Assembly (NCBI GenBank): GCA_004298155.1
Contig: SCRD01000024.1
Coordinates: 434,001 to 498,000, forward strand
DNA length: 64,000 nucleotides
Direction of reading: 5' to 3'
Source of the DNA: Acidobacteriota bacterium
GTDB taxonomy: Bacteria > Acidobacteriota > Terriglobia > UBA7540
Shown here: positions 861-19,996 of the stretch, piece after piece
Layout of the letters: each line of letters starts with the position of its first letter
Numbering within the stretch: position 1 is the first letter of the stretch
Notes under the pieces: model-generated
What the model was told of the DNA's origin: nothing
Databases searched by the model: none
Seen by the model: the letters and a program-made list of their open reading frames with translations, nothing else
Made by a program: the position numbers and the translations under genes

Positions 861-1522
861 CGAACACAAAGGCAGACAACGATTACTTGTGTTGGCGTGA
901 AATTGGGACGGCCGGTGACGGCTCCTGCGATCTGCTGGGCGAATACGTGCACTGCCGCAACTGCCCGCAATACTCGGCCATAGGGCGCACGTTGTTCGAT
1001 CGGGAAATGTCGGCCGACTACCGGCAAGAAGTCTCAGAAGAACTGGCTGCCGCCGCTGCGGTGACCGAGGAGACGGAGTCACTACTAATACTCCGGACTG
1101 GTTCCGAATGGTTTGCGCTCCGAACCCAACGCTTCGAGGGGATTTCGACGTACCAGAAACCCTACGTCGTTCCATTTCGGTCCGGCTCATTGCTGGCAGG
1201 GTTGGTGAACGTCAACGGCGAGTTACTTCTTTGTATTTCATTGGAAGCGGCTTTGGGGTTGCCGCCCGGATCGGGGACAGAAACAGCAGGCCGGCCGCGC
1301 CTTTGTGTGGTGGGAAACGGGAATGAGAGGTTCGCCTTTGGCGTGGACGAGATTCTGGGTGTGCGCCACGTTCCCAGCCGCAAGATGCAGCATGTTCCGG
1401 TAACGCTCGCAAAGTCTCCGTCCGCACAGGTCATCTCCTGCTTTGAGGTCGATGGGCGCAACGTTGGCTTGATCGACGAGCAAAGACTGTTCAACTCATT
1501 GGATAGGAGTCTGCAGTGGTGA
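857..1522 (+). CDS. cheW: CheW-like coupling protein with N-terminal Cys cluster (WspD-like)
   Basis: Scaffold that couples receptor and CheA kinase. Residues 1-40 carry a cysteine cluster (C12, C24, C33, C36; VHCRNCPQY), which from memory is also typical of Pseudomonas WspD. Residues about 75-215 form the CheW SH3-like domain (SEWFALRTQRFEGI, LAGLVNVNGELLLCISL). At 221 residues it is longer than classical CheW (about 165) because of the N-terminal extension. It overlaps cheR by 4 bases and cheA by 4-7 bases. The Cys cluster could bind a metal, but nothing in the sequence proves that. CheW call high; WspD subtype moderately high. Confidence 0.9.
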   Translation: MTNTKADNDYLCWREIGTAGDGSCDLLGEYVHCRNCPQYSAIGRTLFDREMSADYRQEVSEELAAAAAVTEETESLLILRTGSEWFALRTQRFEGISTYQKPYVVPFRSGSLLAGLVNVNGELLLCISLEAALGLPPGSGTETAGRPRLCVVGNGNERFAFGVDEILGVRHVPSRKMQHVPVTLAKSPSAQVISCFEVDGRNVGLIDEQRLFNSLDRSLQW

Positions 1523-4194
1523 GTGGACGGGGCGACACGGTGTCGATGCTCGACCTGTTCCGTTCGGAACTGGAGAGACACTCTTTCGCTCTCGAACAAG
1601 GGCTGGTGAGCGTCGAGGCGTGCGAGGAGCATCTTCAGCAGCTGATGCGTGCTGCACATTCTGTGGGGGGCGCTGCCCGCATTGTCCAACTTGATTGCGC
1701 CGCGCGGCTGGCGCGGGCGATGGAGGATGTCCTGCGGGCAGGGCAGAAAACCGAGTATCGATTGAGTCGTGATGTAGTCGATTCCTTGCGTACAGCAAAC
1801 GAGGTCTTTCGTCAACTGGTACAGAACAACGTGGAGGATATACCGGCAAAGCTTGAAAGCCGCCGCGACGATATCGAACGAATCATACACCAGTTGGTCT
1901 TGCTTACCCCTCAACAGACAGAGTCTCATGCGCCGGCGGAACCTGTCGCCGGACCGCCGCCATCGGCGGCCGTCGATATATCCCTGCTCGAATTGTTCCG
2001 AACTGAACTGGAAACCCACTCCCGCGTGCTTGAGGAAGGCCTGGTAGAAACAGAAGCCCGGCAAGATCCTGAACTGATCAAGTCATTGATGCGTGCCGCA
2101 CACTCACTCAAGGGGGCCGCGCGAATTATTGGCCTGGATTCCGCCGTGAAGCTGGCCCACGCGATGGAGGACATGCTCAGCTCAGCCCAACGCGGCGAGC
2201 GGCAACTGTCGCATGTGGATTTCGACCTGCTACTCCAGGGCACTGACGTGTTCACCCGCCTGGCCGGACACGAACCTGTTGACATTCCTGCTGCGCTTGA
2301 GGAAGCCGCTCCCAGCATCAGAGAACTGACCGTAAAGTTCAGGTTGCCTTCGAGTTCCGCCCAAACCGAGCCCGCTCCTCCTCAGTCCGTTATTGTTCCA
2401 GCGTCTCCACCGGCGGCCGGAGCATCCCCAAAGGCTCATGTCGATAAGACAGAGGCGACCTCAGTGCGCGTGTCTGTAGAGAACCTGAACCGGCTGAGCG
2501 GACTTGCAGGCGAATGCCTGGTGGAAGTTAAGACGCTCCACCCTCTCACACAAACTGTGCAACGCATCAAACAGCGGCACACGATGCTTGGGAAAGTGAT
2601 TGAACAGGCGCTGGAAGCATTGCGGAAAGAGTCTGAAGTCGAAGCACGGGGCCAGTTGGAAGAAGCTCTCAGGGAATCCGGGTGGATCCACAGTACGATT
2701 CCCCTTTTCCAGACAGAACTTGAGCGCTTCTCTGGAAAGTTGGAACGCCTGGCCAACCGCATGTACGACGACGCAGTCGCAAGCCGAATGCGACCTTTTT
2801 CTGATGGGCTGCACGGTTTCGCGCGTATGGTGCGCGACATGGCGAAATCGCTCGGCAAGCATGTTCGGTTCTCAGCCGAAGGCGAGACGACGCCGGTCGA
2901 TCGAGACATCCTCGAAAAGCTTGAGGCCCCGTTGACTCACCTGCTTCGGAATGCGTTGGATCATGGACTGGAGATACCGGAGGTACGGGCACAGGCCGGT
3001 AAGCCACCAGAAGGAAGGCTGACTCTCTCGGCCCGCCACGTCGCGGGGATGCTGGATATCTCCGTTACGGACGACGGGGGCGGGATCGACCTGGAGCGGC
3101 TTCGGCAGAAGATTGTGGCCAAGGGGCACGCAACCTCCGAGATGGTGGAAAAGTTGAGCGAAGGAGAGTTGCTGGACTTCCTGTTTCTCCCTGGCTTTTC
3201 CACCTCACAGCGAGTGACGGAGATCTCCGGGCGAGGAGTCGGGCTGGACGTGGTGCAATCGATGGCGCGCCGGGTGGGCGGGAACGTACGAATTGAGTCA
3301 AGGCTGGGGCAAGGCACGCGGGTCACGCTCCAGTTGCCCCTCACGCTCTCCGTCTTGAGGACTATGATGTTCGAGGTCAAGGGGCAGCCTTATGCCCTGC
3401 CGCTTACGCGCATTGACCGTGTGCTGAGCATTCCTCCCACAGACATCCAGGTGGTTGAAGATCGGCAGTATTGCCGGTTCGACGAGCAGAATATTGGCCT
3501 GGTTGATGCCACTCAGGTGCTGGACCTGGCAGGTTCTGATCGGCCTGCCGGCAGTCTGCGCTTGGTAGTGCTCAGTGATCGACTCAACCGCTACGGCTTG
3601 GTCGTGGACCGACTGATTGGCGAGCACGACCTCGTAGTGCTCCCACTTCCCGCCCGGTTGGGAAAGGTGCCAAACGTGAGCGCTGGTGCCATTCTGGAAA
3701 ATGGATCGCCGGTAGCAATCCTAGATAGCGAAGACCTTGTGCGTTCCATCGACAATTTGTTGACAGGCGGAAGCCTGGTGAAACTTGGTGCGCAGGCAAA
3801 GGCTCAGAAGGCGAAGCGAAAATGCGTCCTGGTAGTTGACGATTCACTCACCGTGCGCGAGGTGGAGCGGCGACTGCTTGAAAATCGGGGGTACGAAGTA
3901 ACCGTCGCAGTGGATGGTATCGATGGCTGGAACGCCCTGCAAACCACCCACTTTGACCTTGTAGTGACGGACGTCGACATGCCGCGGATGGACGGCATCG
4001 AACTTGTTAAGCGCATCAAAGGCTCCGCTCCTACGGCCTCCGTCCCGGTGATGATCGTTTCATACAAAGATCACGATGAATACCGAACTCGAGGTTTGGA
4101 GGCCGGCGCCAGCTATTACCTGACCAAGGGCAGTTTCCACGATGAAGCCCTGGTGAATGCTGTCCGTGACTTGATAGGAGAGGCGGAAAAGTGA
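1516..4194 (+). CDS. cheA: Hybrid CheA histidine kinase with two HPt domains and C-terminal receiver (WspE-like)
   Basis: Core kinase of the chemosensory array. Order of domains: HPt-1 (about residues 8-125, phospho-acceptor candidate H48 in RAAHSVGGAARIV); HPt-2 (about 155-270, H196 in RAAHSLKGAARII); an Ala/Pro-rich linker; dimerisation helices (about 315-450); HATPase (N box LLRNALDHG near 476-484, G boxes DDGGGID and SGRGVGLDVV near 519-580); CheW-like domain (about 610-750); REC (about 768-890, DD at 775-776, acceptor D819 in TDVDMP). HPt-2 has the canonical HSLKGAA motif; HPt-1 has lost the lysine. The start is GTG at 1516 or the GTG at 1519, which gives a GTGA overlap with the previous stop. 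It should phosphorylate its own REC, CheB and the regulator at 5222. Confidence 0.92.
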   Translation: MVSGRGDTVSMLDLFRSELERHSFALEQGLVSVEACEEHLQQLMRAAHSVGGAARIVQLDCAARLARAMEDVLRAGQKTEYRLSRDVVDSLRTANEVFRQLVQNNVEDIPAKLESRRDDIERIIHQLVLLTPQQTESHAPAEPVAGPPPSAAVDISLLELFRTELETHSRVLEEGLVETEARQDPELIKSLMRAAHSLKGAARIIGLDSAVKLAHAMEDMLSSAQRGERQLSHVDFDLLLQGTDVFTRLAGHEPVDIPAALEEAAPSIRELTVKFRLPSSSAQTEPAPPQSVIVPASPPAAGASPKAHVDKTEATSVRVSVENLNRLSGLAGECLVEVKTLHPLTQTVQRIKQRHTMLGKVIEQALEALRKESEVEARGQLEEALRESGWIHSTIPLFQTELERFSGKLERLANRMYDDAVASRMRPFSDGLHGFARMVRDMAKSLGKHVRFSAEGETTPVDRDILEKLEAPLTHLLRNALDHGLEIPEVRAQAGKPPEGRLTLSARHVAGMLDISVTDDGGGIDLERLRQKIVAKGHATSEMVEKLSEGELLDFLFLPGFSTSQRVTEISGRGVGLDVVQSMARRVGGNVRIESRLGQGTRVTLQLPLTLSVLRTMMFEVKGQPYALPLTRIDRVLSIPPTDIQVVEDRQYCRFDEQNIGLVDATQVLDLAGSDRPAGSLRLVVLSDRLNRYGLVVDRLIGEHDLVVLPLPARLGKVPNVSAGAILENGSPVAILDSEDLVRSIDNLLTGGSLVKLGAQAKAQKAKRKCVLVVDDSLTVREVERRLLENRGYEVTVAVDGIDGWNALQTTHFDLVVTDVDMPRMDGIELVKRIKGSAPTASVPVMIVSYKDHDEYRTRGLEAGASYYLTKGSFHDEALVNAVRDLIGEAEK

Positions 4195-5222
4195 TGCGTA
4201 TTGGCATCGTCAACGATCTAGCGCTGGCAGTAGAGGTGCTTCGGCGCTTGGTGCACAGTGTCCCGGATTACGAAGTGGCATGGACTGCTGGAACCGGCAT
4301 TGAGGCAGCGGAGAAGTGTGCCCGCGATTGCCCGGATCTGATTCTGATGGACCTCATCATGCCATTGATGGACGGCGCGCAAGCCACCCGCATCATCATG
4401 AAAGAATCACCTTGCGCCATCCTGGTCGTCACTGCAACTGTGGCCGGCAATGCGGACAAAGTTTTTGCGGCCTTGAGTGCGGGGGCACTGGACGCCGTGG
4501 CTACTCCTGTTTTCGGTCCCGGTGGGGGGATAAACGGCGGGGAGGAACTCCTGCGGAAAATTGCAGTGATAGGAAAACTCATCGCTTTAGCTGGACGGGG
4601 AACTCCTGCGGCCGCTCCGTCGAAACCTCAGATCGCGCCTGTACGTCCGCCTCGACTGGTGGCATTGGGGGCCTCGACTGGTGGCCCTAATGCTTTGGCG
4701 ATTATTCTGCGCAGCCTGCCAAAGAACCTGGAAGCGGCCCTGGTTGTAGTTCAACACCTCGATGCGCAGTTTGCCCCGGCGCTTGTTGAATGGCTGGGCA
4801 ACCAGACTGATCTTCCAGTATCGCTCATCCGGGAGAATCTCGCGCCCGAGGCAGGCAGAGTTTTCGTGGCAGGGACCAATGATCATTTGGTAATCGACGC
4901 CGACCTCACTTTTCATTACACCGCTGAGCCCGTGGACTATCCTTACCGGCCCTCGGTGGACGAGTTTTTCCTGAGCCTGGGACGCCACTGGCCACAACCC
5001 GGAGTAGCCTGCCTGCTGACGGGAATGGGCCGGGATGGAGCGCAGGGGCTGTTGGTACTTCACCGAGCAGGGTGGAAAACGATTGCGCAAGATGAAAAAA
5101 CTTGTGTTGTTTACGGTATGCCTCGTGCAGCGATGGAAGCAGGAGCAGTGGCACAATTGCTCCCTGTTGAGCGTATTTCAGTTGCCATCCTGGACGAAGT
5201 CAGAAAAGAGAAGGTAGCATAG
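4191..5222 (+). CDS. cheB: Chemotaxis response regulator / protein-glutamate methylesterase CheB (WspF-like)
   Basis: Removes receptor methyl groups when phosphorylated, giving negative feedback against CheR. REC domain at residues 1-120 with acceptor D54 (LILMDLIMP) and the reduced acidic pocket ND at residues 8-9 where most receivers have DD. Methylesterase domain about 150-340 with the full triad: S162 in LGASTGGPNAL, H189 in VVQHLDAQ, D282 in LTGMGRDGAQG. Possible starts are GTG 4191 and ATG 4194 (MRIGIVND); both overlap the cheA stop. Full length for the family. Its presence implies a methylatable receptor encoded upstream of the window. Confidence 0.93.
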   Translation: MMRIGIVNDLALAVEVLRRLVHSVPDYEVAWTAGTGIEAAEKCARDCPDLILMDLIMPLMDGAQATRIIMKESPCAILVVTATVAGNADKVFAALSAGALDAVATPVFGPGGGINGGEELLRKIAVIGKLIALAGRGTPAAAPSKPQIAPVRPPRLVALGASTGGPNALAIILRSLPKNLEAALVVVQHLDAQFAPALVEWLGNQTDLPVSLIRENLAPEAGRVFVAGTNDHLVIDADLTFHYTAEPVDYPYRPSVDEFFLSLGRHWPQPGVACLLTGMGRDGAQGLLVLHRAGWKTIAQDEKTCVVYGMPRAAMEAGAVAQLLPVERISVAILDEVRKEKVA

Positions 5223-6424
5223 TGTCTACAAACGCCGCCCAAACGTTTGTTCCCTCCTTGACCGAGTACCCAATCCGGGTCCTTCTGGTAGACGACCAGG
5301 CCATCGTAGGAGAGAGCGTGCGGCGGATGCTTGGACCGGAGTCTGACATCACCCTGAGATTCTGCCAGGATCCAGCGCGCGCGGTGCTCACCGCGGTTGA
5401 ATGGTCCCCTACTGTTATCCTTCAGGACCTCGTGATGCCAGACATCGATGGCTTGGACTTGGTACGCTTTTTCCGCGCGCACCCTCAATTGAAGGATATA
5501 CCTCTGATCGTGCTATCGAGCAGGGAGGATGCCTTGACCAAGGCAGAGGCATTTGCCCTAGGAGCAAATGATTACCTGGTCAAGTTGCCAGACCGCATTG
5601 AACTGATTGCGCGTATCCGTTACCACTCGAAGGGCTACATAAACCTGTTGCAGCGCAACGACGCGTACCAGGCCTTGCTTGTAAGCCAGCAAAAACTAGC
5701 CATTGAAATCGCGCGGGCAGCCGAATATGTTATTTCACTGCTTCCGGCACCGATCAGTGGCGGCGATGTGACGACGGCCTGGAGGTACTTCCCCTCTGCC
5801 ACGCTTGGAGGCGATTCGTTTGGCTATCACTGGCTCGATGAGGACCACTTTGCCTTCTATCTCCTCGACGTTTGCGGGCATGGCGTAGGTCCTGCTCTTT
5901 TGTCAGTCTCAGCGCTGAACGTACTGCGTGCCCAATCCCTGCCCGGCGTCGATTTCCATGACCCGGCGGCTGTGCTCGGCGGGATGAACACAAATTTTCA
6001 GATGGAGAAACAGAACGAACTTTACTTCACGCTTTGGTATGGAGTCTACAATCGACAAACGAGAAGTCTGAACCATGCAAGCGCCGGACATCCTCCAGCA
6101 TTGCTTTTCGGAAATTCTTCCCTGCCTGCTGAACAAGTAATATGCCAAAACATGTTTATCGGAGCTTTCCCCAACGTAGAATTTGAGAAATCCGAGACTC
6201 GGGTGCTGAAGGGGTCGCGAGTCTACCTTTTCTCGGACGGTGTCTATGAGGTTGAACGCCCCGATGGAACCATGTGGTCGTTAGAAGAGTTACAGGACTT
6301 CCTCCGCCGCCCGTTAGCCGAACCTGGCAAGGAGATCGAGACGCTTTACAAAACCCTCCAGGAATTGCACGGCGGGGATACGTTGGATGACGACTTCTCG
6401 CTTCTCCGTCTTGACTTCACCTAG
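5222..6424 (+). CDS. Response regulator: WspR-like receiver and stalk fused to a PP2C/SpoIIE (RsbU-type) phosphatase
   Basis: Likely output protein of the chemosensory operon. REC at residues about 19-140 has VDDQAIVGESVRRML, acceptor in ILQDLVMP, the conserved Ser in VLSS and the Lys in YLVKLPD. It is followed by the short helical stalk RIRYHSKGYINLLQR, which closely resembles what I recall of P. aeruginosa WspR. Where WspR continues into GGDEF, this protein enters a PP2C domain (about 175-400) with the metal-binding motifs LGGDSFGY, LDVCGHG, LFSDGVYE and LDDDFSL all intact, so it should be active. Family knowledge: RsbU/SpoIIE phosphatases dephosphorylate STAS anti-sigma antagonists. The GTG start shares one base with the cheB TAG. 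The STAS protein ending at 6572 is the obvious candidate substrate (inference). Confidence 0.9.
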   Translation: MSTNAAQTFVPSLTEYPIRVLLVDDQAIVGESVRRMLGPESDITLRFCQDPARAVLTAVEWSPTVILQDLVMPDIDGLDLVRFFRAHPQLKDIPLIVLSSREDALTKAEAFALGANDYLVKLPDRIELIARIRYHSKGYINLLQRNDAYQALLVSQQKLAIEIARAAEYVISLLPAPISGGDVTTAWRYFPSATLGGDSFGYHWLDEDHFAFYLLDVCGHGVGPALLSVSALNVLRAQSLPGVDFHDPAAVLGGMNTNFQMEKQNELYFTLWYGVYNRQTRSLNHASAGHPPALLFGNSSLPAEQVICQNMFIGAFPNVEFEKSETRVLKGSRVYLFSDGVYEVERPDGTMWSLEELQDFLRRPLAEPGKEIETLYKTLQELHGGDTLDDDFSLLRLDFT

Positions 6425-6571: not shown

Positions 6572-6910
6572 TTAGACTTTGAGAGACTTGAGCGCTTCCT
6601 CCCGGGAATGATAGACACGGATGTGAGAAGTACACCCTGATACTTCGAGGACCCGATAGATCAATTCAGCCACATCTGCCAGGGCCATCTTTCCACCCAG
6701 ATCTGCCATCTTCTTGGCCGCCGCCAGGAGTGCCCGCAAGCCGGAGCTATTGATGTAGTCCACGCCGGATAAATCTAGAAGCATTTGACGCGCTCCGTTT
6801 TCGATAAGGCTGGTCATTTTTTTGGAAAAGCTTTCTGAGGCCTCGGTATTTATTTTTCCGCCTATCGCCAGGACGATAATACCCTCAACGTTCTCCTCGT
6901 TAAAGGTCAT
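6572..6910 (-). CDS. STAS-domain anti-anti-sigma factor (RsbV/SpoIIAA type)
   Basis: Single STAS domain, 112 residues, the normal size for this family. It has the conserved loop DYINSSGLR with candidate phosphorylated serines 55/56, preceded by MLLDLSGV. In known partner switches the unphosphorylated form binds the anti-sigma kinase and frees the sigma factor; kinase and PP2C phosphatase set its state. A strong ribosome-binding site AAGGAGGT lies at 6917-6924. It is the last gene of the minus-strand operon and its end faces the end of the REC-PP2C gene, 147 bp away. Its matching kinase is encoded 44 bp upstream. Confidence 0.9.
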   Translation of the reverse strand: MTFNEENVEGIIVLAIGGKINTEASESFSKKMTSLIENGARQMLLDLSGVDYINSSGLRALLAAAKKMADLGGKMALADVAELIYRVLEVSGCTSHIRVYHSREEALKSLKV

Positions 6911-6954
6911 GTTTGCACCTCCTTGACGCGAAGGCCCCGAAGAGAATGGTACCC

Positions 6955-7377
6955 TTATGCGCGGTCGATGATTTTCTTCATGACCAATAAGTTCTTATCG
7001 TTGAGCCGCTGGTATTCCAGCCTATCCATGACCTGCCGAACCAGGTGGATTCCTAATCCACCCACGGGGCGCTCAGCCGGTGGACAGTTAAGGTTAGGAC
7101 TTGGGACTTCCAGCGGGTTAAAGGGAGCACCGTCATCTTCAACCTCAACATCCAATGCATTTCCGGAGTGGCATGCACGGACGCCGACGTAATGCTCTCT
7201 GTCGTCTTTCCAACCGTAGCGGATGACGTTGCTGACGATTTCATCCAGGGCTAGATTGACATGGAATTCCGTCGCGGCGGAAATTCCGTTGCCACGGCAC
7301 CAGGCTGACACGGCCTCTGACATTCTCTGCAGTTCGCAGAGATCGTTTCTCAGTACGAGGGACAAGCGGCTTTCCAT
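6955..7377 (-). CDS. Anti-sigma factor serine kinase (RsbW-like, HATPase_c)
   Basis: A GHKL ATPase of about 140 residues. The N box is LALDEIVSNVIRYGW, G1 is EVEDDGAPFNP and G2 is GGLGIHLVRQVMD, which are the signatures of RsbW/SpoIIAB-type kinases. Such proteins bind a sigma factor, or another target, and phosphorylate the STAS antagonist. The frame begins GTG-ATG; I chose the ATG at 7377. It lies between the ABC ATPase gene and the STAS gene in the same direction. No sigma factor gene is seen in the window, so the target is unknown. Confidence 0.88.
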   Translation of the reverse strand: MESRLSLVLRNDLCELQRMSEAVSAWCRGNGISAATEFHVNLALDEIVSNVIRYGWKDDREHYVGVRACHSGNALDVEVEDDGAPFNPLEVPSPNLNCPPAERPVGGLGIHLVRQVMDRLEYQRLNDKNLLVMKKIIDRA

Positions 7378-7472
7378 CACTGCTCCGAACCTGTTCCGAT
7401 GTCGGGCCCAGCCGGAACAACAGCCACCGGCGTCGAGAGTGATGTCGGCAGGCGGGCGAAGCCAAACCCAGA

Positions 7473-8285
7473 TCAGATGTAGATTCGCTCCAGCATCTCG
7501 GCAGCAGTCTCATCCAACTGGTCAGCGCGCCGCACCTCCTCGAAACGCGCCAATAGATCGTCGACTCGGATGCGCCTCTTTTCCGCACCCTTGAATTCCT
7601 GGATAATCCTGCCGCGATGCATCATGATCAGTTGGTCTCCCAGATTGGCTGCCTGGTGCATCGAATGTGTCACCATGAGGGTTGTCAGCCGGCCACGCGT
7701 GACGATTGCATCCGTCAGGGCAATCACTTGGTCGGCGCTCTTCGGATCCAAAGCGGCCGTGTGCTCGTCCAGCAGGAGCAGTCGGGGCTTCAACCAGGTT
7801 GCCATCAAAAGGGTCAGTGCCTGCCGCTGCCCGCCGGAAAGGCTGCCGATGATATTATTCAGCCGATCCTCAAGGCCCATATTTAACTGCCGCACACGTT
7901 CCCGAAGTTCATCCTTTGTTTTTTTGTTCAGCGCCCAGCCGATCCCGCGTGGCAGGCCGCGCCGTGCTGCTAGCACCAGGTTTTCGGCGATTGTCAGGTT
8001 CGGGGAGGTTCCACTAAAGGGATTCTGAAATACGCGGCCCATCAGCCGTGCCCGCCGGTGTTCAGGCCAGGCCGTGATATCGGTGCCATCCAGGGAAATT
8101 GTGCCGGTATCAATCAGAAAGGCGCCGGCCACTGCATTGAGCAAAGTCGATTTCCCCGATCCGTTCGTTCCAATGATCGCTACGAAAGCGCCTTCTGCAA
8201 GCTTCAGATGTACGCCCTCGATTGCTCGGACTTCACTAGGGGTCCCTGGGTTAAAAACTTTGACCACATTTTGCATTTCAAGCAT
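7473..8285 (-). CDS. ABC transporter ATP-binding protein (COG1101 type, partner of PF04392 substrate-binding proteins)
   Basis: Powers import through the permease encoded just upstream. It has Walker A GTNGSGKSTLLNAVAG, signature LSGGQRQALTLLMA, Walker B LLLLDEHTAALDP and the switch His in MVTHSMHQA. The DEHTAALDP form is typical of the ATPase that travels with TrpXY-like / ABC_sub_bind transporters. It overlaps the permease gene by 8 bases. The 95 bp between its stop and the RsbW-like gene hold no obvious terminator, so all may be one transcript. The substrate cannot be read from the sequence; relatives are linked to amino acids or other small organics. Confidence 0.9.
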   Translation of the reverse strand: MLEMQNVVKVFNPGTPSEVRAIEGVHLKLAEGAFVAIIGTNGSGKSTLLNAVAGAFLIDTGTISLDGTDITAWPEHRRARLMGRVFQNPFSGTSPNLTIAENLVLAARRGLPRGIGWALNKKTKDELRERVRQLNMGLEDRLNNIIGSLSGGQRQALTLLMATWLKPRLLLLDEHTAALDPKSADQVIALTDAIVTRGRLTTLMVTHSMHQAANLGDQLIMMHRGRIIQEFKGAEKRRIRVDDLLARFEEVRRADQLDETAAEMLERIYI

Positions 8286-9216
8286 GGGACAGTCTGACCC
8301 TCCGTAACCTCAACTTGCGCATCAGGCTGGGCAAAACCAAGGCTAAAAAGACGAAGACCGCGGTGATCAGTTTAAGGTCGTTCGGGTTCAATCCCAGACG
8401 CAGGGCAATTGCCACCAGCAGACGGAACAACACCGAACCCATCACTGCACCACAAATAATAAAACCGAGTTGGCGTGTTCCCACCAGTGCTTCCCCTATG
8501 ATGACACTCGCCAGCCCCCAAACCACCATGCCAATGCCCATCTGGACATCAGCGAAACCCTGGTATTGCGCCAGAAAAGCACCGGAAAGCGCCACCAGAC
8601 CGTTTGAGACCGCAAGGCCCAGCACGATCATGTTGCCGTCGTTCACCCCTAACGCCCGGATCATCTGGCTATTGTCTCCGGTCGCACGCATCGCCGTTCC
8701 GAGGTGGGTCTGAAAGAATGCATACAAGAGCACGCCCGTCAGCGCGATTGAAACAAAGGTCAAAACCAGTACGGAGGCGTCGAGGCTGGATACTTCCCAA
8801 CCCATCACATTCAGGCTCGCGCGGCCGCCAAGCACCGTTGTGCCCATCTCCTGAGCGTAGGTCGCAAGTGTCTTTTCCCCCAGCAAAGGTACATTGCTGC
8901 GCCCCATGATGTGCAGATTAACTGAGTAGAGTCCCGTCATCACCAAGATGCCGGAAAGCAATCCATTGATTTTGAATTTAGTGGCCAGTGTGCCTGTTAC
9001 GGCACCGGCCACGAAACCTGCTCCAAAACCCGCAGCGGAGGCTGCCACGGGATTCACTCCTTTAACAATCATCGCCGCAGCAACCGCTGCGCCCAGCGTG
9101 CTCGACCCGTCAGCCGTAATGTCCGGAAAGCTGAAGATGCGAAAACTGATAAACACGCCCAAGGCCAGCAGTGAAAGGATAAATCCAATTGTCATTGCAC
9201 CAATCAGGAGGCTCAT
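8278..9216 (-). CDS. ABC transporter permease (COG4120 / TrpY-like)
   Basis: Membrane subunit of 312 residues with about eight hydrophobic segments. It begins MSLLIGAMTIGFILSLLALG and has the FPDITADGSSTLGAA region typical of the permease family paired with PF04392 binding proteins. Long Gly/Ala-rich segments (AASAAGFGAGFVAGAVTG) and a cytoplasmic-type EALVGTRQLG loop fit the BPD_transp_2 fold. The ATG begins directly after the stop of the STAS-fusion gene (TAG at 9217-9219), so translation is probably coupled. Substrate unknown. Confidence 0.9.
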   Translation of the reverse strand: MSLLIGAMTIGFILSLLALGVFISFRIFSFPDITADGSSTLGAAVAAAMIVKGVNPVAASAAGFGAGFVAGAVTGTLATKFKINGLLSGILVMTGLYSVNLHIMGRSNVPLLGEKTLATYAQEMGTTVLGGRASLNVMGWEVSSLDASVLVLTFVSIALTGVLLYAFFQTHLGTAMRATGDNSQMIRALGVNDGNMIVLGLAVSNGLVALSGAFLAQYQGFADVQMGIGMVVWGLASVIIGEALVGTRQLGFIICGAVMGSVLFRLLVAIALRLGLNPNDLKLITAVFVFLALVLPSLMRKLRLRRVRLSHA

Positions 9217-10488
9217 CTATGACCTCTCTTCAATGGTTTCGGCAAGCGGAGCAAGCCAGCACGCTCCGCGAACAAACTGGCTCTGGCCTGCCCCCGCGAA
9301 TACGCGATCGTCACTCAGGAGATGTAGGACGCCGAGCAGCGTCTGATTTTCGAAAAGCGATTTGACGGTTCTCCTCAGCTCGATCTTGCCTTTCTGCACT
9401 GGACGGTAAGAAAACGCCGCAGCGTGAAAGTGCCCCACAATTGGGGTGGCAGAGGTCAAGGGTTGCAGCAAAGGGGTGAGAATCCCTTCGACTCCACGTG
9501 CTGCCACACCTGCCACGAGCGCCAGGCTACGCGTATACGCAGGCTCCCCCGTAAAGCTGAGCCACTCGCGAATCCCGGGAAATTCGAAAGGCGCATTTTT
9601 TGCGGCCTCGCCGGTAGGCGAACGGCGCAGCGAAGCCCCTATCAATCCTGCAGACTCAGCCACGATGACCAGCCCAGACTGCTCGGCCTCGCTAATTTCC
9701 AGCAGCGAATCGACCAGTTGCATAAGTTTTACTGCCCCGGCTTCGTCCTTTGCCTCGAAGCGTACCAACTTTGAGAATTGGCCGTCGCAGGCGAGGCCAT
9801 AACAAACCTGCACGTCCGGCAAAGAGGAGCCTGCGGCCACCAGATAGTCGGGTACGTTCGTGCCGTCCGTGGGCAGATAAGCGACGGTCCCGCCGACCGC
9901 AATAAATTCACCGAAACGGCCCCGGCACTCCTCAAAACTGTCGCCCAGGGCGCCCAGGCCGATGCCGAAGGTGGATTCAGGAAACTGCACTGTACTGCAA
10001 CTGTCCCGGCGGAAACGGCAACCCCGCAGCAGATCCGGGTCACCCAACAGCCGGAGTTTCAGCGTGGCCTTCGGTGTACAGGGAAATACGTCGAAGGCTG
10101 TACCGTGCGCTTCCAAATGAATAGCCATTGCAGAGGCCGTCGCCGTCGTAGGGAGAGAGGGGGCGCCAACCGCGGCCATATCTCTCATGCCAGTGAGCAA
10201 CACACCGGTGAGTCTTGAAATTTCCAGAACTTTCTTGACAGGCTCGGAAGCCTCTGAGACCACCAGGGAGCCTTGGATTTCCCTCAACTGCCTGTAGTAC
10301 TTCACCAGGACTCTAATGCCTGCCGAACTGAGGAAGACGACCTCTGAAAGGTCCAACATCAGATGGTGTGAGCCACGGCGAATCTCTTCGTCCAACGCCC
10401 CTGCCAAGTGGTCCGCCCAATAGCCATCCAGCCGCCCTTTGACCTTTAGCTCTTTTACTTCTCCTGATTTCTCTACCGTGATTTCCAT
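9217..10488 (-). CDS. STAS-domain protein with a large unrecognised C-terminal region
   Basis: 423 residues. Residues 1 to about 110 are a STAS domain (LMLDLSEVVFLSSAGIRVLV, with serines at the usual phosphorylation loop). Residues about 120-423 form a mixed alpha/beta region that I do not recognise; marks include FGIGLGALGDSFEECRG, GGTVAYLPTDGTNVPDY and VCYGLACDGQ. There is no transmembrane helix, so it should be cytoplasmic. It sits between the substrate-binding-protein and permease genes of an ABC importer, an unusual place for a STAS protein. It could link transporter state to the partner-switch proteins encoded downstream (inference). STAS call firm, function unknown. Confidence 0.75.
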   Translation of the reverse strand: MEITVEKSGEVKELKVKGRLDGYWADHLAGALDEEIRRGSHHLMLDLSEVVFLSSAGIRVLVKYYRQLREIQGSLVVSEASEPVKKVLEISRLTGVLLTGMRDMAAVGAPSLPTTATASAMAIHLEAHGTAFDVFPCTPKATLKLRLLGDPDLLRGCRFRRDSCSTVQFPESTFGIGLGALGDSFEECRGRFGEFIAVGGTVAYLPTDGTNVPDYLVAAGSSLPDVQVCYGLACDGQFSKLVRFEAKDEAGAVKLMQLVDSLLEISEAEQSGLVIVAESAGLIGASLRRSPTGEAAKNAPFEFPGIREWLSFTGEPAYTRSLALVAGVAARGVEGILTPLLQPLTSATPIVGHFHAAAFSYRPVQKGKIELRRTVKSLFENQTLLGVLHLLSDDRVFAGAGQSQFVRGACWLAPLAETIEERS

Positions 10489-10523
10489 AATAGGATCCTC
10501 GCGTCCGGCCAGTATCCTCTCAA

Positions 10524-11546
10524 TTACCTGTCGATCACCCTGTCAGCGTTTTGAACGATTGATTGGGGAACCGTGAACCCAATGGCCCGTGCGGTCACCA
10601 AGTTGAGAATGATCTTGTTCTTGATGAGTGGCTGAACCGGGATGGAGGCCGGATCCTCTCCACGCATTACCCGGACTGCAAGCTGCGCAGTCTCAATGCC
10701 ACCATCGTAGTAGTCGCGCGCAACGACGGCAACGGCTCCCTGTTCCGCCGCGGAACTCATGAATGCAAACGTCGGTAGCCTGGCGTCTCGTGCCGCGCGA
10801 GCAATGCTGGTGAAGCCAGTGGCAGTGAGATTGCCCGCAACCTGGCATACCGCGTCAATTTTCATGCTGCACAAAGCCAGGGCGGCATCCGGCAAATCCG
10901 AACTCGTATTGGCCGGTACCGATACCACTTCGATTCCCATTTTTCGCGCTTCCAACACCAATTGGTCCCGGTGGTAAACCGTGTTCACCTCCGAAGGCAC
11001 CACGATCGTTCCAATCCGCCGGGCGTGAGGGAGGCACTCGTGAAGTATTGCAAGCACTTCCTGATCCGCGCCACCCGTAGCCACTCCTGTTACGTTGGGA
11101 CGATGCTCTGTAAAACTGCGGCCTGCGCCGGCGGAGATGGGATCAGCGAGATAAGTGAAAACGATCGGCATCCGCTGCGGGGACTTGCGAATGGCCGCCT
11201 GCAAGGTCGGCGTCGAGAGTGTCATCAGTAGACCGGCTCTGGCGGTCAACGCGGCATCCACCAGGCCGTTCAGTGTTGTCATGTCCCCTTGCGCGTTGCG
11301 GATCGTCACCTCATAGTCGCGTCCTTCCACCAGACCGGATTGCCGTAGGCCTTCCAAAATCCCTCTCTCCGACTCTTCCGAGTCCTCCACATTCACATAC
11401 TCCAAAAGATTCACCACCCATTTCTTGTTTACTCCGGTAACGCCGCCGCGACTCTCGCGCCTGCCCCAATCAGAAACCAGCAAAACCGCTGAGGCGAGCA
11501 GAATCAGCGCCAATCCCAGAGACAACCGCTTGGTAACGAGCCACAT
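10524..11546 (-). CDS. Membrane-anchored ABC substrate-binding protein (PF04392 family)
   Basis: 340 residues: a short N-terminal hydrophobic anchor (LSLGLALILLASAVLLVSDW) followed by one ABC_sub_bind domain with two Rossmann-like lobes. Recognition motifs are YEVTIRNAQGD, LMTLSTPTLQAA, VFTYLADPISAGAGRS and PNVTGVATG. There is no lipobox Cys, so it is probably held by an uncleaved anchor. The anchor and the following LLVSDWGRR closely match the start of the neighbouring 936-residue protein (LLVSDWNRR), so one gene arose from the other by duplication. It presents ligand to the permease at 8278-9216. Confidence 0.88.
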   Translation of the reverse strand: MWLVTKRLSLGLALILLASAVLLVSDWGRRESRGGVTGVNKKWVVNLLEYVNVEDSEESERGILEGLRQSGLVEGRDYEVTIRNAQGDMTTLNGLVDAALTARAGLLMTLSTPTLQAAIRKSPQRMPIVFTYLADPISAGAGRSFTEHRPNVTGVATGGADQEVLAILHECLPHARRIGTIVVPSEVNTVYHRDQLVLEARKMGIEVVSVPANTSSDLPDAALALCSMKIDAVCQVAGNLTATGFTSIARAARDARLPTFAFMSSAAEQGAVAVVARDYYDGGIETAQLAVRVMRGEDPASIPVQPLIKNKIILNLVTARAIGFTVPQSIVQNADRVIDR

Positions 11547-11585
11547 GCGAAATCTCCAAAAGTTCGCACTTGCCCACGACTCCTG

Positions 11586-14396
11586 TCACTTGGCCACCGC
11601 AGTCCGCTGGATCCGGGTCTTCTCAGGCAGCAGTGAGTTGGGGCTGACTCCCGCGAGCACCTTGGCAGCGAGGTGGCCGCTTTGCTTGCCCCACTCGACA
11701 TAATCATCGCCGATAGCTCCAGCCGCTCCGCGCTCCACAAACCTGGGTTCGGTCGCGTATACCGGCACCCCGTTTTTCTTTGCTGCCCCGAGGATCCCTG
11801 GGAAGCCGGTTGTGGTCAGATTATCTGCAGAGATCACAATGATCCCGGCGTGACGCTGGCATAAGGACTCCGTTGCTTGCGGCAGGTCTGATACAACCGC
11901 GGCGGTGGCCTCAACCAGCGTCAATTTCCGTTCCTGGCATGCCTTGCGAAGCTTCTTCACAGAAATTTCGGAATTCGGTTGGGAGGGGTCCCATACTGTT
12001 CCTACGGTAGCGAAAGGTGCTTCTCGTTTGAGCGCAAGGTCCAAAACACGATCCAGGGGCGGATCATCGTAAACGCCTGTGATGTTCGGTGGCCGCTGAT
12101 TGCCCTGGAAGATTCCCAGCACTTTGGGGTCGCTTGCCACAGTGAACACAATCGGGATTTCATGGATCGCGCGGGCCGCAGCTAGAAGTACCGGTGTTCC
12201 AGAAGTCACTACGAGATCTGCGCCTTCCGACTTGATAGCAGACATGATCAGCGGGAGTTGTGTCACATCACCCTGAGCGTTAAATCGACGCAATACAAAA
12301 TCGGCACCTTGCCTCAGGTGGGCTTCTTCCAGGCCCTTGATGAAGCCCTCACAGCTTTCGTCAATCACCGGGTTATCGACAATCTGCACCATCGCCACCC
12401 TTGCCGGGCGGCCCAGTTTGGCACGGAGATTGTAGAAGCTTACGCTCTCCTTCAGGATGTCCTCAGGGACGGTCAGGCCCAGCGTCTTCAGCGATGCAAA
12501 GTTGACCTCAATGCGTTTCTTCGCGATGTTCTGCATCGGCATGGTGGCGGGTTTCTCCCCCAGCAGAATGCGGGAAACTATGAGGCCGGCTTCGTACCCC
12601 GGTTGATAAAAGCCAATCTGAACAGCAAGCGTTGCGCCTTTATCAACGGCCTCAATATCGTTCGTCAGCACCGGAAGTTTCGCTTTGGAGGCCACGTTCG
12701 CAATGGCGTCGAAAGCGATCGTGGCTGTGTTGTCTCCTGCGATCCAAATGGCATCGACATTCTTCTGGGCGGCAACCTGGGTCGCCAGGTAAACTTCGCT
12801 GGTACCTGTTACCGGCACTTCCTCCAGGCGGATGCCTTGCTTCCTGCAAAGCCCCCTGGCCACCTCGACCACCTTGCGCGAATTTGCCTCCGAGCTGTTG
12901 TAGATGATGCCAAGAGACTTCAAGCGCGGTAGGAACCGCTTGTAGACAGCCAGCGATTCCTCCAGAGGCGGAAAAGAGCCAATACCGGTAACATGCGGCA
13001 AGTGGTCCATCATGCTCTTACCGGCGCCGGCCGCTATGGGATCGTAAACATATGCAAAAACCACTGGTTTCCTTTTCACGGTGGCGGATGCAGCGGTGAG
13101 ACATGGCGTCGTGAGTGCCACAATCGCGTCTACATCGGAATTGTCAAAGTTCTGCAGGAGTTGTGTGATGTTCGATATCTCTGCTTGCGCGTGAGCCCGA
13201 CGAAATTCCAGGTTCTTGCCCTCGACAAACCCTCGATCGCGCAATGCGTCCTGCACTGCCCTGATCACCAGATCCGCGCCGGGTTCAGGCGCAAAATAGA
13301 CAAGCCCAACTTTGTAGGTTCGTCCGAGTTCGGGTGCTTTGAGCTGCCCTGCACTTGTCGACTGAGCTGCGTCAGGGGCGCTTGCCCTTGCCATCACTGC
13401 GGGTAAAATCCTCCAAGGACCTTTGAGGCCCTGGAGCACAGAGGTATCAACAACCAGCTTTTCGGGAACAATGTTCTCAATGCGAACGCTGGCGGGATCC
13501 TTGCCCTTCAAAACCTCTGCTGCGAGCTTTCCGGCAAGCGTGCCGACCTCGAAATAGTCGGCTCCCAATGCAAACAGTTCGCCTCGTTTCACCGAGGCAG
13601 GAGTGTTGCTGAAAACCGGGATTCTTCCCTCCCTGGCTGCGGCCACTACAGAGTCAGTAGCCGTTTCCACAGTATTGTCTCCGCCGATCCACAGCGCCTG
13701 TGCTCCGCGACCCACAAGCGATCTGGCAGCTTCCAGAACGCCCGCAGAATTTTCAACGTTGGCTTCCAGAAGCTCGACACTCATTTCTTTGCACTTCTTG
13801 CGCGCTTTCAGAACACACGCCTCAGAGCTGGCTTCGGAAGCATTCCACACCACCCCCACACGAGTTAGCGCCGGGTAGATTTCTTTTGCGATCTGAAACG
13901 TGTGCTCAACGGGCTGGAAAGTGCCGATACCAACGAGATGTCGCGGATGGTCAAGCGGGTTGACGCCACTGATGCCGACTCCTGCTCCGAACGGGTCCGT
14001 CACCGCCGCGAAAACATGGATAGTGTTTCCATCCTTGTTCGCGCTTGCCATGGTCTGAAGCGCAGGCGTGCTGGAGGTTAGAACGAGGTCGAAATGTCCA
14101 GTAACGAGAGCCTTGGCTATGGTATTAGCGGTTACAAAATCGCCTTCGGCGTTGAAACGCTGGATCGAGATCGTCTGGCCGTCTACAAAACCGTCCTTCG
14201 CCAGCGCATCGACCATTCCGGCCACGTTTTCGTCAAGGATGGAATTGGAACCAAACTGAAAAATCGCCACACGCCGGACTTTCTCAGTTACACCGCTCCT
14301 CTGGTCGCGGCGATTCCAGTCGGATACGAGCAGTACCGTGGACGCCCCAATGATCAACGCAATTCCTAACGCAAGTTTTCGGATGGCCGGCAGCAT
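11586..14396 (-). CDS. Membrane-anchored protein with three tandem ABC substrate-binding domains (PF04392)
   Basis: 936 residues, about three times the normal length. After an N-terminal anchor (LALGIALIIGASTVLLVSDW) come three ABC_sub_bind units at about 40-325, 359-650 and 665-930. Each repeats the same signs: a strand such as VAIFQFGS, VGLVYFAP or VAMVQIVD; TSSTPALQ, TTPCLTAA or SGTPVLLA; and a DP motif (VTDPFGAG, YDPIAAGAG, ASDPKVLG). Linkers are short. It is the first gene of the minus-strand operon, 39 bp before the single-domain homologue. The triple form could hold several ligands or different ligands per unit; the units are clearly diverged. Confidence 0.88.
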   Translation of the reverse strand: MLPAIRKLALGIALIIGASTVLLVSDWNRRDQRSGVTEKVRRVAIFQFGSNSILDENVAGMVDALAKDGFVDGQTISIQRFNAEGDFVTANTIAKALVTGHFDLVLTSSTPALQTMASANKDGNTIHVFAAVTDPFGAGVGISGVNPLDHPRHLVGIGTFQPVEHTFQIAKEIYPALTRVGVVWNASEASSEACVLKARKKCKEMSVELLEANVENSAGVLEAARSLVGRGAQALWIGGDNTVETATDSVVAAAREGRIPVFSNTPASVKRGELFALGADYFEVGTLAGKLAAEVLKGKDPASVRIENIVPEKLVVDTSVLQGLKGPWRILPAVMARASAPDAAQSTSAGQLKAPELGRTYKVGLVYFAPEPGADLVIRAVQDALRDRGFVEGKNLEFRRAHAQAEISNITQLLQNFDNSDVDAIVALTTPCLTAASATVKRKPVVFAYVYDPIAAGAGKSMMDHLPHVTGIGSFPPLEESLAVYKRFLPRLKSLGIIYNSSEANSRKVVEVARGLCRKQGIRLEEVPVTGTSEVYLATQVAAQKNVDAIWIAGDNTATIAFDAIANVASKAKLPVLTNDIEAVDKGATLAVQIGFYQPGYEAGLIVSRILLGEKPATMPMQNIAKKRIEVNFASLKTLGLTVPEDILKESVSFYNLRAKLGRPARVAMVQIVDNPVIDESCEGFIKGLEEAHLRQGADFVLRRFNAQGDVTQLPLIMSAIKSEGADLVVTSGTPVLLAAARAIHEIPIVFTVASDPKVLGIFQGNQRPPNITGVYDDPPLDRVLDLALKREAPFATVGTVWDPSQPNSEISVKKLRKACQERKLTLVEATAAVVSDLPQATESLCQRHAGIIVISADNLTTTGFPGILGAAKKNGVPVYATEPRFVERGAAGAIGDDYVEWGKQSGHLAAKVLAGVSPNSLLPEKTRIQRTAVAK

Positions 14397-14963: not shown

Positions 14964-15887
14964 TCACTGTGAGCTTGCAATGGCAAAAGTTCGCTTTGCG
15001 GAACGGACGACAAGAGCTTGGCCATCCTGTGAGATTCGGGCCGGGCATTCGGGCCAGAAGGTTCGCACTTCCCTGAGCCAACAGGCCAGCTTCCTCCGGA
15101 AGAAGCGCTTTTCCGAGTACTCGATTGGCCCAAGTTCGTCTACAAGCCCACCCTGTGTGAATAAGGGAATCCGAACAGAGCGGCCGTTGAGTGACCAGCT
15201 TTTCCATGACAACCAAAGGTAAAGGTCAGGCACTCCGGGTACGTCGGCAAGCGCCGCGACAACCTCCCGCTCCACAGGGATCCGGTGCTGATCGATCTCT
15301 TCGTAAAAGGCTTCGCTCAGCACGATAGAATTCTCATCACTGCCGGAATCTACTGGCTCTCCTTCACCCTTGTGAAACCAGAGACGCATGCGATCAAAGA
15401 AGTGGAACCTGGCCCAATCAAGGACAAGGTTGCCATTAGGCTCGTCACTGGTTCCGAAAAAGATGGTAGCCGCAAAGATCCTCTGGAATCCTTCCATTAT
15501 GCGGCGGTACCGTTTGCCGTCCTTGAAGAGATGGAAGAAGTCAAGCATCTCGGCGGCAGAAGCAAAGCGGACCACCCGGCTGCGCTGGCGCAAGGCCAAG
15601 GTGGCAATCCAAATTGCGATGAGCCTGTCCTGGCCGTAAGGAAGCCCAAACTGCGGGTGGCCGATAACCTGGAGGAAGAATTTGCCGTTGCGGCGGACGT
15701 GCGAAGTGGAATTTCGAGGAGGACGTCGTAAGGGAAGGCTGCACAGGATGAAAGGGCGGGCATGAAAAGCGAGTTGTTGTCTGCCGTTCTCCCGCTGTTC
15801 GCGAATGAGTTGAATGGATTCGAGTTGCTTCAATCGCCGTTTGGTGATACCAACGGTAGGCAGAATTGATTGAACGGAACGTGGCAA
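14964..15887 (-). CDS. Plasmid-type replication initiator RepA (PF04796-like)
   Basis: 307 residues, resembling plasmid-encoded RepA proteins that bind an origin and start replication. Points of match recalled from the family: GLPYGQDRLIAIWIATLAL, a middle QRIFAATIFFGT segment, IVLSEAFYEEI, PDLYLWLSWKSWSL and a C-terminal EYSEKRFFRRKLACWLREV helix. It begins with TTG; no strong ribosome-binding site is seen. No partition gene, integrase or iteron array is recognisable nearby, so it is probably a stranded remnant of an integrated plasmid or island, or a domesticated copy. The frame is intact, suggesting recent arrival or retained use. Confidence 0.7.
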   Translation of the reverse strand: MPRSVQSILPTVGITKRRLKQLESIQLIREQRENGRQQLAFHARPFILCSLPLRRPPRNSTSHVRRNGKFFLQVIGHPQFGLPYGQDRLIAIWIATLALRQRSRVVRFASAAEMLDFFHLFKDGKRYRRIMEGFQRIFAATIFFGTSDEPNGNLVLDWARFHFFDRMRLWFHKGEGEPVDSGSDENSIVLSEAFYEEIDQHRIPVEREVVAALADVPGVPDLYLWLSWKSWSLNGRSVRIPLFTQGGLVDELGPIEYSEKRFFRRKLACWLREVRTFWPECPARISQDGQALVVRSAKRTFAIASSQ

Positions 15888-19900: not shown

Positions 19901-19963
19901 GGTACGCAGGGTGTCCGCAGCATTGAAAGCGGGGATAATTACCGACACTGTTGGTTGAGTCAT
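16925..19963 (-). CDS. Trimodular polysaccharide enzyme: GT2 glycosyltransferase + NodS-like methyltransferase + NodB-like deacetylase
   Basis: About 1012 residues. Module 1 (about 1-230): GT-A glycosyltransferase, SVIIPAFNAADT, VIDDGSKDR, DXD-type FLDADDW, and GEDWDLW as acid region. Residues about 235-515 are a spacer of unknown fold. Module 2 (about 520-705): SAM methyltransferase with NodS-like entry DPWSFGSAYEQTKYKHTL, LELACAEGDFTAKLA and VCSEVLYYL. Module 3 (about 760-975): polysaccharide deacetylase with ILMYHRI, catalytic TFDDGY, metal site HGAGH and YPYGG. The ORF can also start at TTG 19975; I prefer ATG 19963. It is the last gene of the polysaccharide locus and lies 33 bp after the ABC exporter gene. 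No signal peptide, so it probably acts in the cytoplasm on a lipid- or nucleotide-linked sugar (inference). Confidence 0.87.
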   Translation of the reverse strand: MTQPTVSVIIPAFNAADTLRTALGSVQEQSFRQWEAVVIDDGSKDRTAEVVASLALSDRRIRYHKTPSNKGPSAARNSGLAKAQGEYVMFLDADDWIGKHHILRLVKALHRNPLAGGAYTGYTFVTEDGRSQYRIHRNLAEPLSQYLAHSCPFAIHACLVKRHLVQDALGFDETLVFGEDWDLWQRLTRRNIKFLSLDECSAFYQARKGSLTRACGRIIPDGLTVIRRGHAADTSHNGSQPAYESGAPAGNFPSAIFYFILVATGYLVGAGAEVPKACNELPSINVQSFPENIAASTVLDGLMYGAGCSRAELAARWMELWPALAQALQNIFPESVADLNEDVVRREVERQLAKELGPETAPVTLGRTHVLRARLEAGGTPVEIPEGVEVVRAHVSLDNRPFDVADMPVVPGVLAQAAPAAAVLKKHRSIFDPHTRRIIRDNPQLVRLLLGRRTIFFLWDLIHVSRSRWRRRLSAYLSSRINSFLAVRFGLSPVQSRQQECPTIEDRAPSLAESDPERMAWEKVFATVDPWSFGSAYEQTKYKHTLELLPDTPIGDALELACAEGDFTAKLAPRVGHLVAADISEQALLRARQRCGELQNVTFRRSNLRRDPIGRFDLIVCSEVLYYLNDRFELRRLASRLAKSLSTGGHLLMTHSNLVVDDNGVTGFDWVHGFGARFIGETFASIPGLHLVRELRTPLYRVQLFRREPGRRRYSTGPGELISREAVLPSDPEVCGRINWDGCAITRARAYTTNVTRELPILMYHRIASHGPDGLAPYRVSPEAFERQLAYLKHHGYISIGLDEWVYALSAQDGRLPGRLVCLTFDDGYLDFRENAWPLLKHYGFSATVFLPTDLVGRSAEWDRTYGEPAELMSWNDVRALAKEGVTFGAHGAGHRRLNQLSVADMFVEGRLSREKIEAELGSPVRVMAYPYGGNSDLVRRAMESCGFISAVSTNPGLSRLGDDQMALPRQEILGADKMDDFIAKLGPPEPATIDRRMRYYLDRWTRRNLWR

Positions 19964-19996
19964 ACCGCGGTCCAATACGCCCGGGTTTGGATGGGA

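Follow-up and report, generated by a model that had tools for sequence, protein, structure and literature searches.

What does a Wsp-type chemosensory pathway control when its WspR-type receiver leads into a phosphatase and not into a GGDEF domain, the output linked to cyclic di-GMP (c-di-GMP)? This question is raised by a 64,000-nucleotide stretch of DNA (hereafter, the window) from an Acidobacteriota bacterium (assembly GCA_004298155.1, contig SCRD01000024.1, positions 434,001 to 498,000). There, an open reading frame (ORF) at 5222-6424 of the plus strand, with a GTG start, encodes a 400-amino-acid (aa) protein, herein REC-PP2C, in which Pfam, PDB matches, a structural model, and alignments indicate a WspR-type receiver (REC) and stalk fused to a PP2C/SpoIIE phosphatase domain. 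Judged from gene order and sequence, REC-PP2C falls within the Wsp-type chemosensory class but belongs to neither the WspR nor the WspH system; i.e., it is a third output variant. The reading that we favor, with a probability of roughly two in three, is that of a Wsp-type alternative-function pathway in which CheA would signal to the WspR-type receiver, the receiver to the PP2C domain, and the latter to partner switching by a STAS protein.

A phosphatase on a WspR-type receiver and stalk

Pfam places Response_reg at residues 20-133 of REC-PP2C (1.1e-17) and SpoIIE (PF07228) at residues 206-399 (3.3e-39; 135.2 bits versus a curated cut-off of 25), the latter match being near full-length (profile positions 1-191 of 192); SpoIIE takes up the protein from residue 206 on, and the Pfam search returned no GGDEF match in it. 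Among PDB entries searched with phmmer, the top two matches were to WspR (3i5a, 6.3e-53, residues 15-159; 3bre, 4.2e-50, residues 15-160), followed by the REC-PP2C protein RssB (3eq2, 7.5e-23). The initial annotation of this DNA, made from the sequence alone, had described a WspR-like receiver and stalk running into a complete SpoIIE/RsbU-type domain in place of GGDEF, and both halves of that description hold.

From PDB matches and alignment, the module common to WspR comprises residues 1-159 (5222-5698, plus strand), with D69 as the phospho-acceptor. The PP2C output (Pfam and alignments) comprises residues 160-400 (5699-6421, plus strand), with D198, D216, D339, and D390/D391 as predicted metal ligands; these positions were read off alignments with SpoIIE and SiaA at the metal-binding aspartates of PP2C domains. 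Across 95 PP2C relatives, D24, D25, D69, K121, D198, D216, and D339 are invariant, S99 is present in 94 (T in one), and D390 and D391 are present in 94 (gap in one), such that the PP2C domain retains its catalytic residues. An output degenerate in the manner of Escherichia coli RssB was ruled out by this retention of ligands. Within the same genome, 15 other receivers match this receiver at E<=1e-5, none with more than 36% identity, and SpoIIE matches number 10 in all.

The join between the two halves was located in an alignment of 95 PP2C and 35 GGDEF proteins. Over the receiver and stalk, mean cross identity between the two kinds stays close to within-kind levels up to residue 159, reaching 0.52 at residues 155-159 (within-kind, 0.47 for PP2C and 0.74 for GGDEF) and dropping to 0.05 at residues 160-164 (within-kind, 0.41 and 0.50). 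This drop at 159/160 supports an output exchange at the stalk, where the initial annotation had put the swap. By eye, kinase versions (L146, L181, and L208) and a cyclase version (L035) diverge at the same place, with two further cyclase versions (L066 and L089) and a WspH-type version (L250) diverging earlier. In an AlphaFold model of REC-PP2C (53 sequences; pLDDT 91.9, pTM 0.70), a single helix runs from residue 125 to residue 173, and heptad positions L152, L159, A166, and L173 span the join at a spacing of 7, in the most hydrophobic of the seven phases. Foldseek searches with this model returned RssB of Pseudomonas aeruginosa, itself a REC-PP2C protein, at ranks 1-4, WspR from rank 7, and the SiaA PP2C domain from rank 17.

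REC-PP2C closes a run of plus-strand window genes in the order CheR-TPR (tetratricopeptide repeat), CheW, CheA-REC, CheB, and REC-PP2C, with successive overlaps of 4, 7, 4, and 1 bases; the CheB ORF and REC-PP2C thus share a single base, the last of the former and the first of the latter. The WspC-type CheR with its C-terminal TPR (1-860; CheR, 4.3e-41, plus TPR matches) begins upstream of the window (whole gene, L009:9592-10860) and overlaps by 4 bases the CheW gene at the WspD position (857-1522; PF01584, 2.9e-15). These are followed by a WspE-type hybrid CheA (1516-4194; Pfam and CheA clade) with Hpt, ATPase, CheW, and C-terminal receiver domains, and by a CheB methylesterase at the WspF position (4191-5222; CheB_methylest, 1.8e-53; NF009206, 420.8 bits, cut-off 342). 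Upstream of the window, the contig encodes a CheW and two methyl-accepting chemotaxis proteins (MCPs), of which the first carries a Cache_3-Cache_2 domain, so that the full Wsp-type order MCP-CheW-CheR(TPR)-CheW-CheA(REC)-CheB-response regulator is present, in agreement with the Wsp order that had been claimed for the rest of the operon. At E<=1e-15, the genome has no CheA besides that of the operon, which sits with 82 others among the 83 Wsp-type rows of a CheA tree that are split from 23 other CheAs with a support of 100.

The Wsp R-system (WspABCDEF-WspR) of Pseudomonas and betaproteobacteria has in common with this system the gene order, the CheR-TPR, the hybrid CheA, and the receiver-stalk up to residue 159; unlike it, the system described here has a PP2C rather than a GGDEF output and two MCPs, and is found in other phyla. 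In the Wsp H-system of Burkholderia, as portrayed in PMC8552884, a Wsp core is likewise paired with a WspR-type receiver whose output is not GGDEF; however, the WspH output is a histidine kinase encoded 5' of the operon, whereas the PP2C output is encoded at the 3' end.

Distribution and outputs of WspR-type receivers

The fusion was sought in 61 genomes, namely the source genome, 2 genus mates, 34 family members, and 24 others. It turned up in the source genome and in one of the two genus mates (88% identity); two of the 34 family members have other REC-PP2C-like matches. Across 396 genomes of the phylum, at least four more carry it (49-56% identity), counts here being lower bounds with 4 candidates scored per genome. 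In a scan of named genomes, all of the best 80 of 582 confirmed relatives have a WspR-type receiver followed by PP2C, one of them (L062) ending at residue 361 at a contig end. These 80 cover ten named phyla, i.e., Planctomycetota (39), Thermodesulfobacteriota (9), Lentisphaerota (6), Acidobacteriota (5), Pseudomonadota (4), Verrucomicrobiota (3), Myxococcota, Ignavibacteriota, and Elusimicrobiota (2 each), and Chlamydiota (1), with 7 lacking a phylum; many are metagenome-assembled genomes (MAGs) assigned by record name, and single phylum assignments may be wrong. The closest named relative among them is from an Acidobacteriales MAG (L059, 71%). Of the 29 named genomes that carry the fusion, 24 are without a second WspR-type receiver at E<=1e-25. 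The WspR-type receiver-stalk with PP2C is thus a widespread alternative to GGDEF and not a local accident, and the lone swap that the initial annotation had envisaged finds no support in this spread.

With respect to gene context, CheB lies directly upstream of 44 of the 83 PP2C genes (of 84) with 1.2 kb of upstream sequence. For the 60 with 7.5 kb upstream, an MCP-CheR-CheA-CheB series precedes 23, and the exact MCP-CheW-CheR-CheW-CheA-CheB order precedes 17; in 8 of 84, the PP2C gene stands 5' of the Che genes, at the operon front. Corresponding values for GGDEF genes (n=25, 7.5 kb upstream) are 24/25 for the series and 21/25 for the exact order, such that the PP2C family is the more loosely linked of the two to a Wsp operon. 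In four planctomycete loci (L078, L085, L117, and L120), REC-PP2C stands back to back with a Che cluster of another, non-Wsp kind, two ORFs of which match CheA.

Surveys with the receiver and stalk as query (E<=1e-25; 9-18 candidates scored per genome, making counts lower bounds that include the center genome) found WspR-type receivers in at least 10 of 396 genomes of the same phylum, 9 of 199 of the Limnoglobus phylum, 71 of 398 Pseudomonadota (centered on a Methylococcus MAG), and 9 of 198 of the Desulfoferrobacter phylum. The 11 matches in the same phylum comprise 5 PP2C, 2 GGDEF, 1 cyclase, 1 other PP2C, 1 histidine kinase, and 1 receiver alone; the Limnoglobus phylum has 8 PP2C and 1 kinase (9 matches), and the Desulfoferrobacter phylum 4 PP2C and 5 GGDEF (9 matches). 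For Pseudomonadota, 30 loci fetched among more matches gave 25 GGDEF, 4 kinase, and 1 PP2C, which is the center itself. The GGDEF label of L193 was taken from its receiver, identical to that of L192, and histidine kinase labels (L146, L181, L208, L209, L212, L213, and L250) and a PAS label (L102) were read by eye and not from Pfam. Over all loci, 148 distinct ORFs break down into 95 PP2C, 40 GGDEF, 3 cyclase, and 10 without a match to these three, a tally that favors PP2C through the PP2C query used in the named scan.

Several loci carry further arrangements. Tandem WspR-type outputs, a class III nucleotidyl cyclase and a PP2C, occur in two Wsp operons (L066:7567-11191 and L089:8344-11185), and in another (L048:4227-6635, genome G404), the sole output found joins a WspR-type receiver to a class III nucleotidyl cyclase. 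One locus (L036, genome G336) has its WspR-type receiver on a PP2C of another type, an independent phosphatase fusion. At L102:9887-11995, the operon continues after REC-PP2C with another WspR-type receiver, whose tail looks PAS-like by eye, and pseudomonadotal loci (L200, L204, L232, and L233) have two tandem REC-GGDEF genes, of which the second is a diverged copy.

These loci bear on earlier accounts of the family. According to PMC8552884 (2021), Wsp is exclusive to beta- and gammaproteobacteria with either WspR or WspH as output, the search there having been based on synteny and >=30% identity to two proteobacterial operons; the PP2C loci are at odds with this statement. GGDEF Wsp forms also occur outside these classes, namely in the class of the window genome (G297 and G052), among members of the Desulfoferrobacter phylum, and in the alphaproteobacteria Novosphingobium and Mesorhizobium, where they are plasmid-borne. 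PMC6461901 reports WspR in Planctomycetes, and our guess is that these are PP2C forms. Of the receiver outputs in CheR-TPR alternative cellular function clusters, PP2C phosphatase and nucleotidyl cyclase were already listed in PMC3447774 (2012), and the general idea is therefore published; the sections of that paper covered here contain no tie to the WspR-type receiver and no description of the REC-PP2C family. In the literature searched, part of it accessible only in excerpt and with supplements not covered, no description of a WspR-type receiver on PP2C was found.

Direction of the output exchange

Which output came first? In a receiver tree of 99 rows, for which 42 of the 95 PP2C rows were used (every third one and those on a named list), the PP2C receivers fall in the WspR-type group and are separated, by long branches, from those of other REC-PP2C proteins (100/99). 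In this tree, 19 WspR rows of the Pseudomonas/Burkholderia type form their own clade (100/93) with the PP2C receivers outside; kinship to WspR, as put forward in the initial annotation, is thereby upheld at the level of the wider group and not at that of the Pseudomonas-type clade, and nesting of the PP2C receivers in Pseudomonas-type WspR is ruled out as stated. Starred branches of this tree, which has very long outgroup branches, force at least three changes of the PP2C label, and receivers of cyclases, PAS proteins, and kinases are interspersed with those of PP2C; several exchanges or duplications are therefore possible. In a PP2C tree, where the window row was lost in sampling and L019 stands in for it, the domains from 31 sampled WspR-type receivers fall in one subfamily (99), which also includes four PP2Cs on other or no receivers. 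A single PP2C clade for the 31 is compatible with the data (p 0.479), with L036 excluded because its PP2C is of another type.

Of 125 loci, 87 rows entered a tree of joined CheA, CheB, and CheR sequences; loci were excluded if they lacked a usable CheA core or an output label, and six were labeled by hand (PP2C for L109, L124, L130, and L131; GGDEF for L132 and L227). From a quick search, the first such tree had the GGDEF systems and WspH as one group (94) within a grade of PP2C systems, and PP2C would thus have been ancestral. However, this claim is disallowed by an approximately unbiased (AU) test and two root scans, a constrained tree with GGDEF and the outgroup on one side being 10.6 log units better (AU p 0.673). 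The GGDEF systems are not one group in a tree of CheA only, and GGDEF plus WspH is not one split in the ingroup tree of the root scans, whose smallest side with all of them also has six PP2C rows and one histidine kinase row. Over the 163 branches scanned, the joined alignment retains 32 of the 112 root positions that have a side free of GGDEF, 4 of the 48 that have a GGDEF-only side, and 2 of the 3 mixed ones; the scan of CheA alone (22 outgroup rows, long row L276 excluded) retains 52, 8, and 3, respectively.

Exchange in either direction is compatible with these sequence data; the joined alignment leans toward PP2C, and CheA alone leans neither way. That the oldest Wsp form drove serine dephosphorylation and partner switching, with the c-di-GMP form of Pseudomonas and then WspH as offshoots by stalk exchange, is a tentative proposal which we hold to be possible though doubtful. 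The converse, in which a c-di-GMP Wsp pathway lost its GGDEF domain and gained PP2C, as the initial annotation had supposed, seems unlikely to us. It has in its favor the GGDEF-only root branches retained by both scans, the best CheA-alone root, which adjoins two GGDEF systems of the Desulfoferrobacter phylum, and the acceptable constrained tree; set against it are the 28 best root positions in the joined alignment, none with a GGDEF-only side (the best such position being 17.6 log units worse), and the placement of the PP2C receivers outside the Pseudomonas/Burkholderia-type WspR clade.

From the receiver to a predicted partner switch

Convergent to REC-PP2C, the minus strand holds seven tightly packed genes (6572-14396). 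Nearest is a STAS protein of the anti-sigma-factor-antagonist type (6572-6910; Pfam, NCBIfam), the predicted substrate, which aligns with SpoIIAA such that its S55, the first serine of an SSG motif, falls at what we take to be the phosphorylated position. Next to it is an RsbW-like HATPase_c_2 protein (6955-7380; Pfam, NCBIfam), the predicted opposing serine kinase, which matches RsbW (6m36, 5.8e-4) and retains the N, G1, and G2 box motifs as read by eye. By its genes and motifs, this is a partner-switching set adjoining the phosphatase, and partner switching is therefore the likely output; a STAS protein and RsbW-like kinase also adjoin the fusion in the genus mate (G002) and in lineages as distant as Desulfoferrobacter and SM23_31. 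The rest of the group (7473-14396; Pfam), a candidate target, encodes an ABC ATPase, a permease, a 423-aa STAS protein whose C-terminal part has no family name, and two substrate-binding proteins, one of which (936 aa) has three consecutive ABC_sub_bind stretches. To our knowledge, such packing of transporter parts with partner-switching parts is unusual. Farther along the minus strand are a plasmid RepA_C-like replication initiator (14964-15887), on a 0.5-Mb contig, and a 1016-aa protein (16925-19975) that has matches to glycosyltransferase family 2, a methyltransferase, and a polysaccharide deacetylase.

In the pathway that we favor, two chemoreceptors and the CheW proteins would control the kinase CheA-REC, with CheR-TPR and CheB adapting the receptors, a role established for such systems and assigned here from the genes. 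CheA would phosphorylate D69 of the receiver, and dimerization of the latter would be transmitted along the long 125-173 helix, whose heptads span the join between WspR stalk and phosphatase linker. The stalk helix may in turn set the PP2C switch helices, as suggested by the model, the sequence, and the mechanism of RsbU, where RsbT turns the linkers into a coiled coil and dimerizes the phosphatase (PMC12143880). The phosphatase would then remove the phosphate from S55 of the STAS protein, against the neighboring RsbW-like kinase, and dephosphorylated STAS would swap partners, candidate targets being a sigma factor, a diguanylate cyclase, or the co-encoded transporter. PPM phosphatases such as RsbU, SpoIIE, and SiaA likewise have the PP2C fold, the metal ligands, and STAS and HATPase_c_2 neighbors; unlike in these, the input here is a receiver in a chemosensory operon.

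Several observations weigh against the partner-switching pathway. Close to home the fusion is patchy, the other genus mate and the 34 family members lacking it at E<=1e-25, and 29 of 84 PP2C genes have no same-strand Che gene (7 of the 29 have Che genes on the other strand). The stalk coil is not clean throughout, given a hydrophobic period of 3.45 over residues 133-173 but 4.0 over 133-159. Of the 74 PP2C loci with 1.5 kb or more of downstream sequence, only 10 have a STAS or HATPase gene no farther than 2.5 kb away, as detected with home-made hidden Markov models that may miss members, and HATPase_c_2 was found by Pfam in 3 of 110 flanking proteins (from 125 picks taken greedily by length, with the 25 commonest of 117 families considered and 36 GGDEF picks left out). 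The substrate is therefore not established family-wide; still, 10/74 versus 0/25 for GGDEF loci (at least 0.9 kb; Fisher p 0.061) fits partner switching, as far as gene neighborhoods go.

Two other outputs can be envisaged. As in the SiaABCD system of P. aeruginosa, which is described in PMC9239204, the phosphatase might act via its STAS protein on a diguanylate cyclase elsewhere in the genome, with c-di-GMP still the output. The genome has 5 GGDEF matches above cut-off, away from the operon, and SiaA PP2C is among the fold matches; however, Pfam finds no GGDEF in the 20 neighboring proteins and no direct link is apparent, and we consider this route improbable. HsbR-HsbA-HsbD is a system that resembles SiaABCD. 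Alternatively, the PP2C domain could serve chiefly to bind a sigma factor or a protease under the control of phosphorylation, as in an RssB-like adaptor, catalytic or not and with STAS as co-factor. Together with RssC, RssB of P. aeruginosa has the same REC-helix-PP2C order and a STAS-type partner nearby, Pseudomonas RssB (NF045505) is the top NCBIfam match (residues 18-395), and it heads the Foldseek ranking. Yet that match scores only 93.8 bits versus a family cut-off of 700, the receiver here is WspR-type and much nearer WspR than RssB, and the metal ligands found in 94-95 of 95 relatives argue for probable catalysis, making an adaptor role improbable. P. aeruginosa RssB is not known to have a chemosensory operon. 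An assembly or annotation artefact, or a chimera, is ruled out by the 88% copy in a like operon of the genus mate and by the 80 named loci.

Ultimately, the partner-switching pathway proposed for REC-PP2C belongs to a Wsp family that is widened from beta- and gammaproteobacteria to ten named phyla, and in which genes named WspR by their receiver may be unrelated to c-di-GMP. In its accessible parts, PMC12143880 compares the RsbU linker to P. aeruginosa RssB and proposes a modular exchange among phosphatases, diguanylate cyclases, and kinases via coiled-coil linkers; the word Wsp is absent from it. With one input module of array, kinase, receiver, and stalk found naturally with four catalytic outputs, several of them joined at the same residue, the Wsp family provides a natural test set for that proposal.

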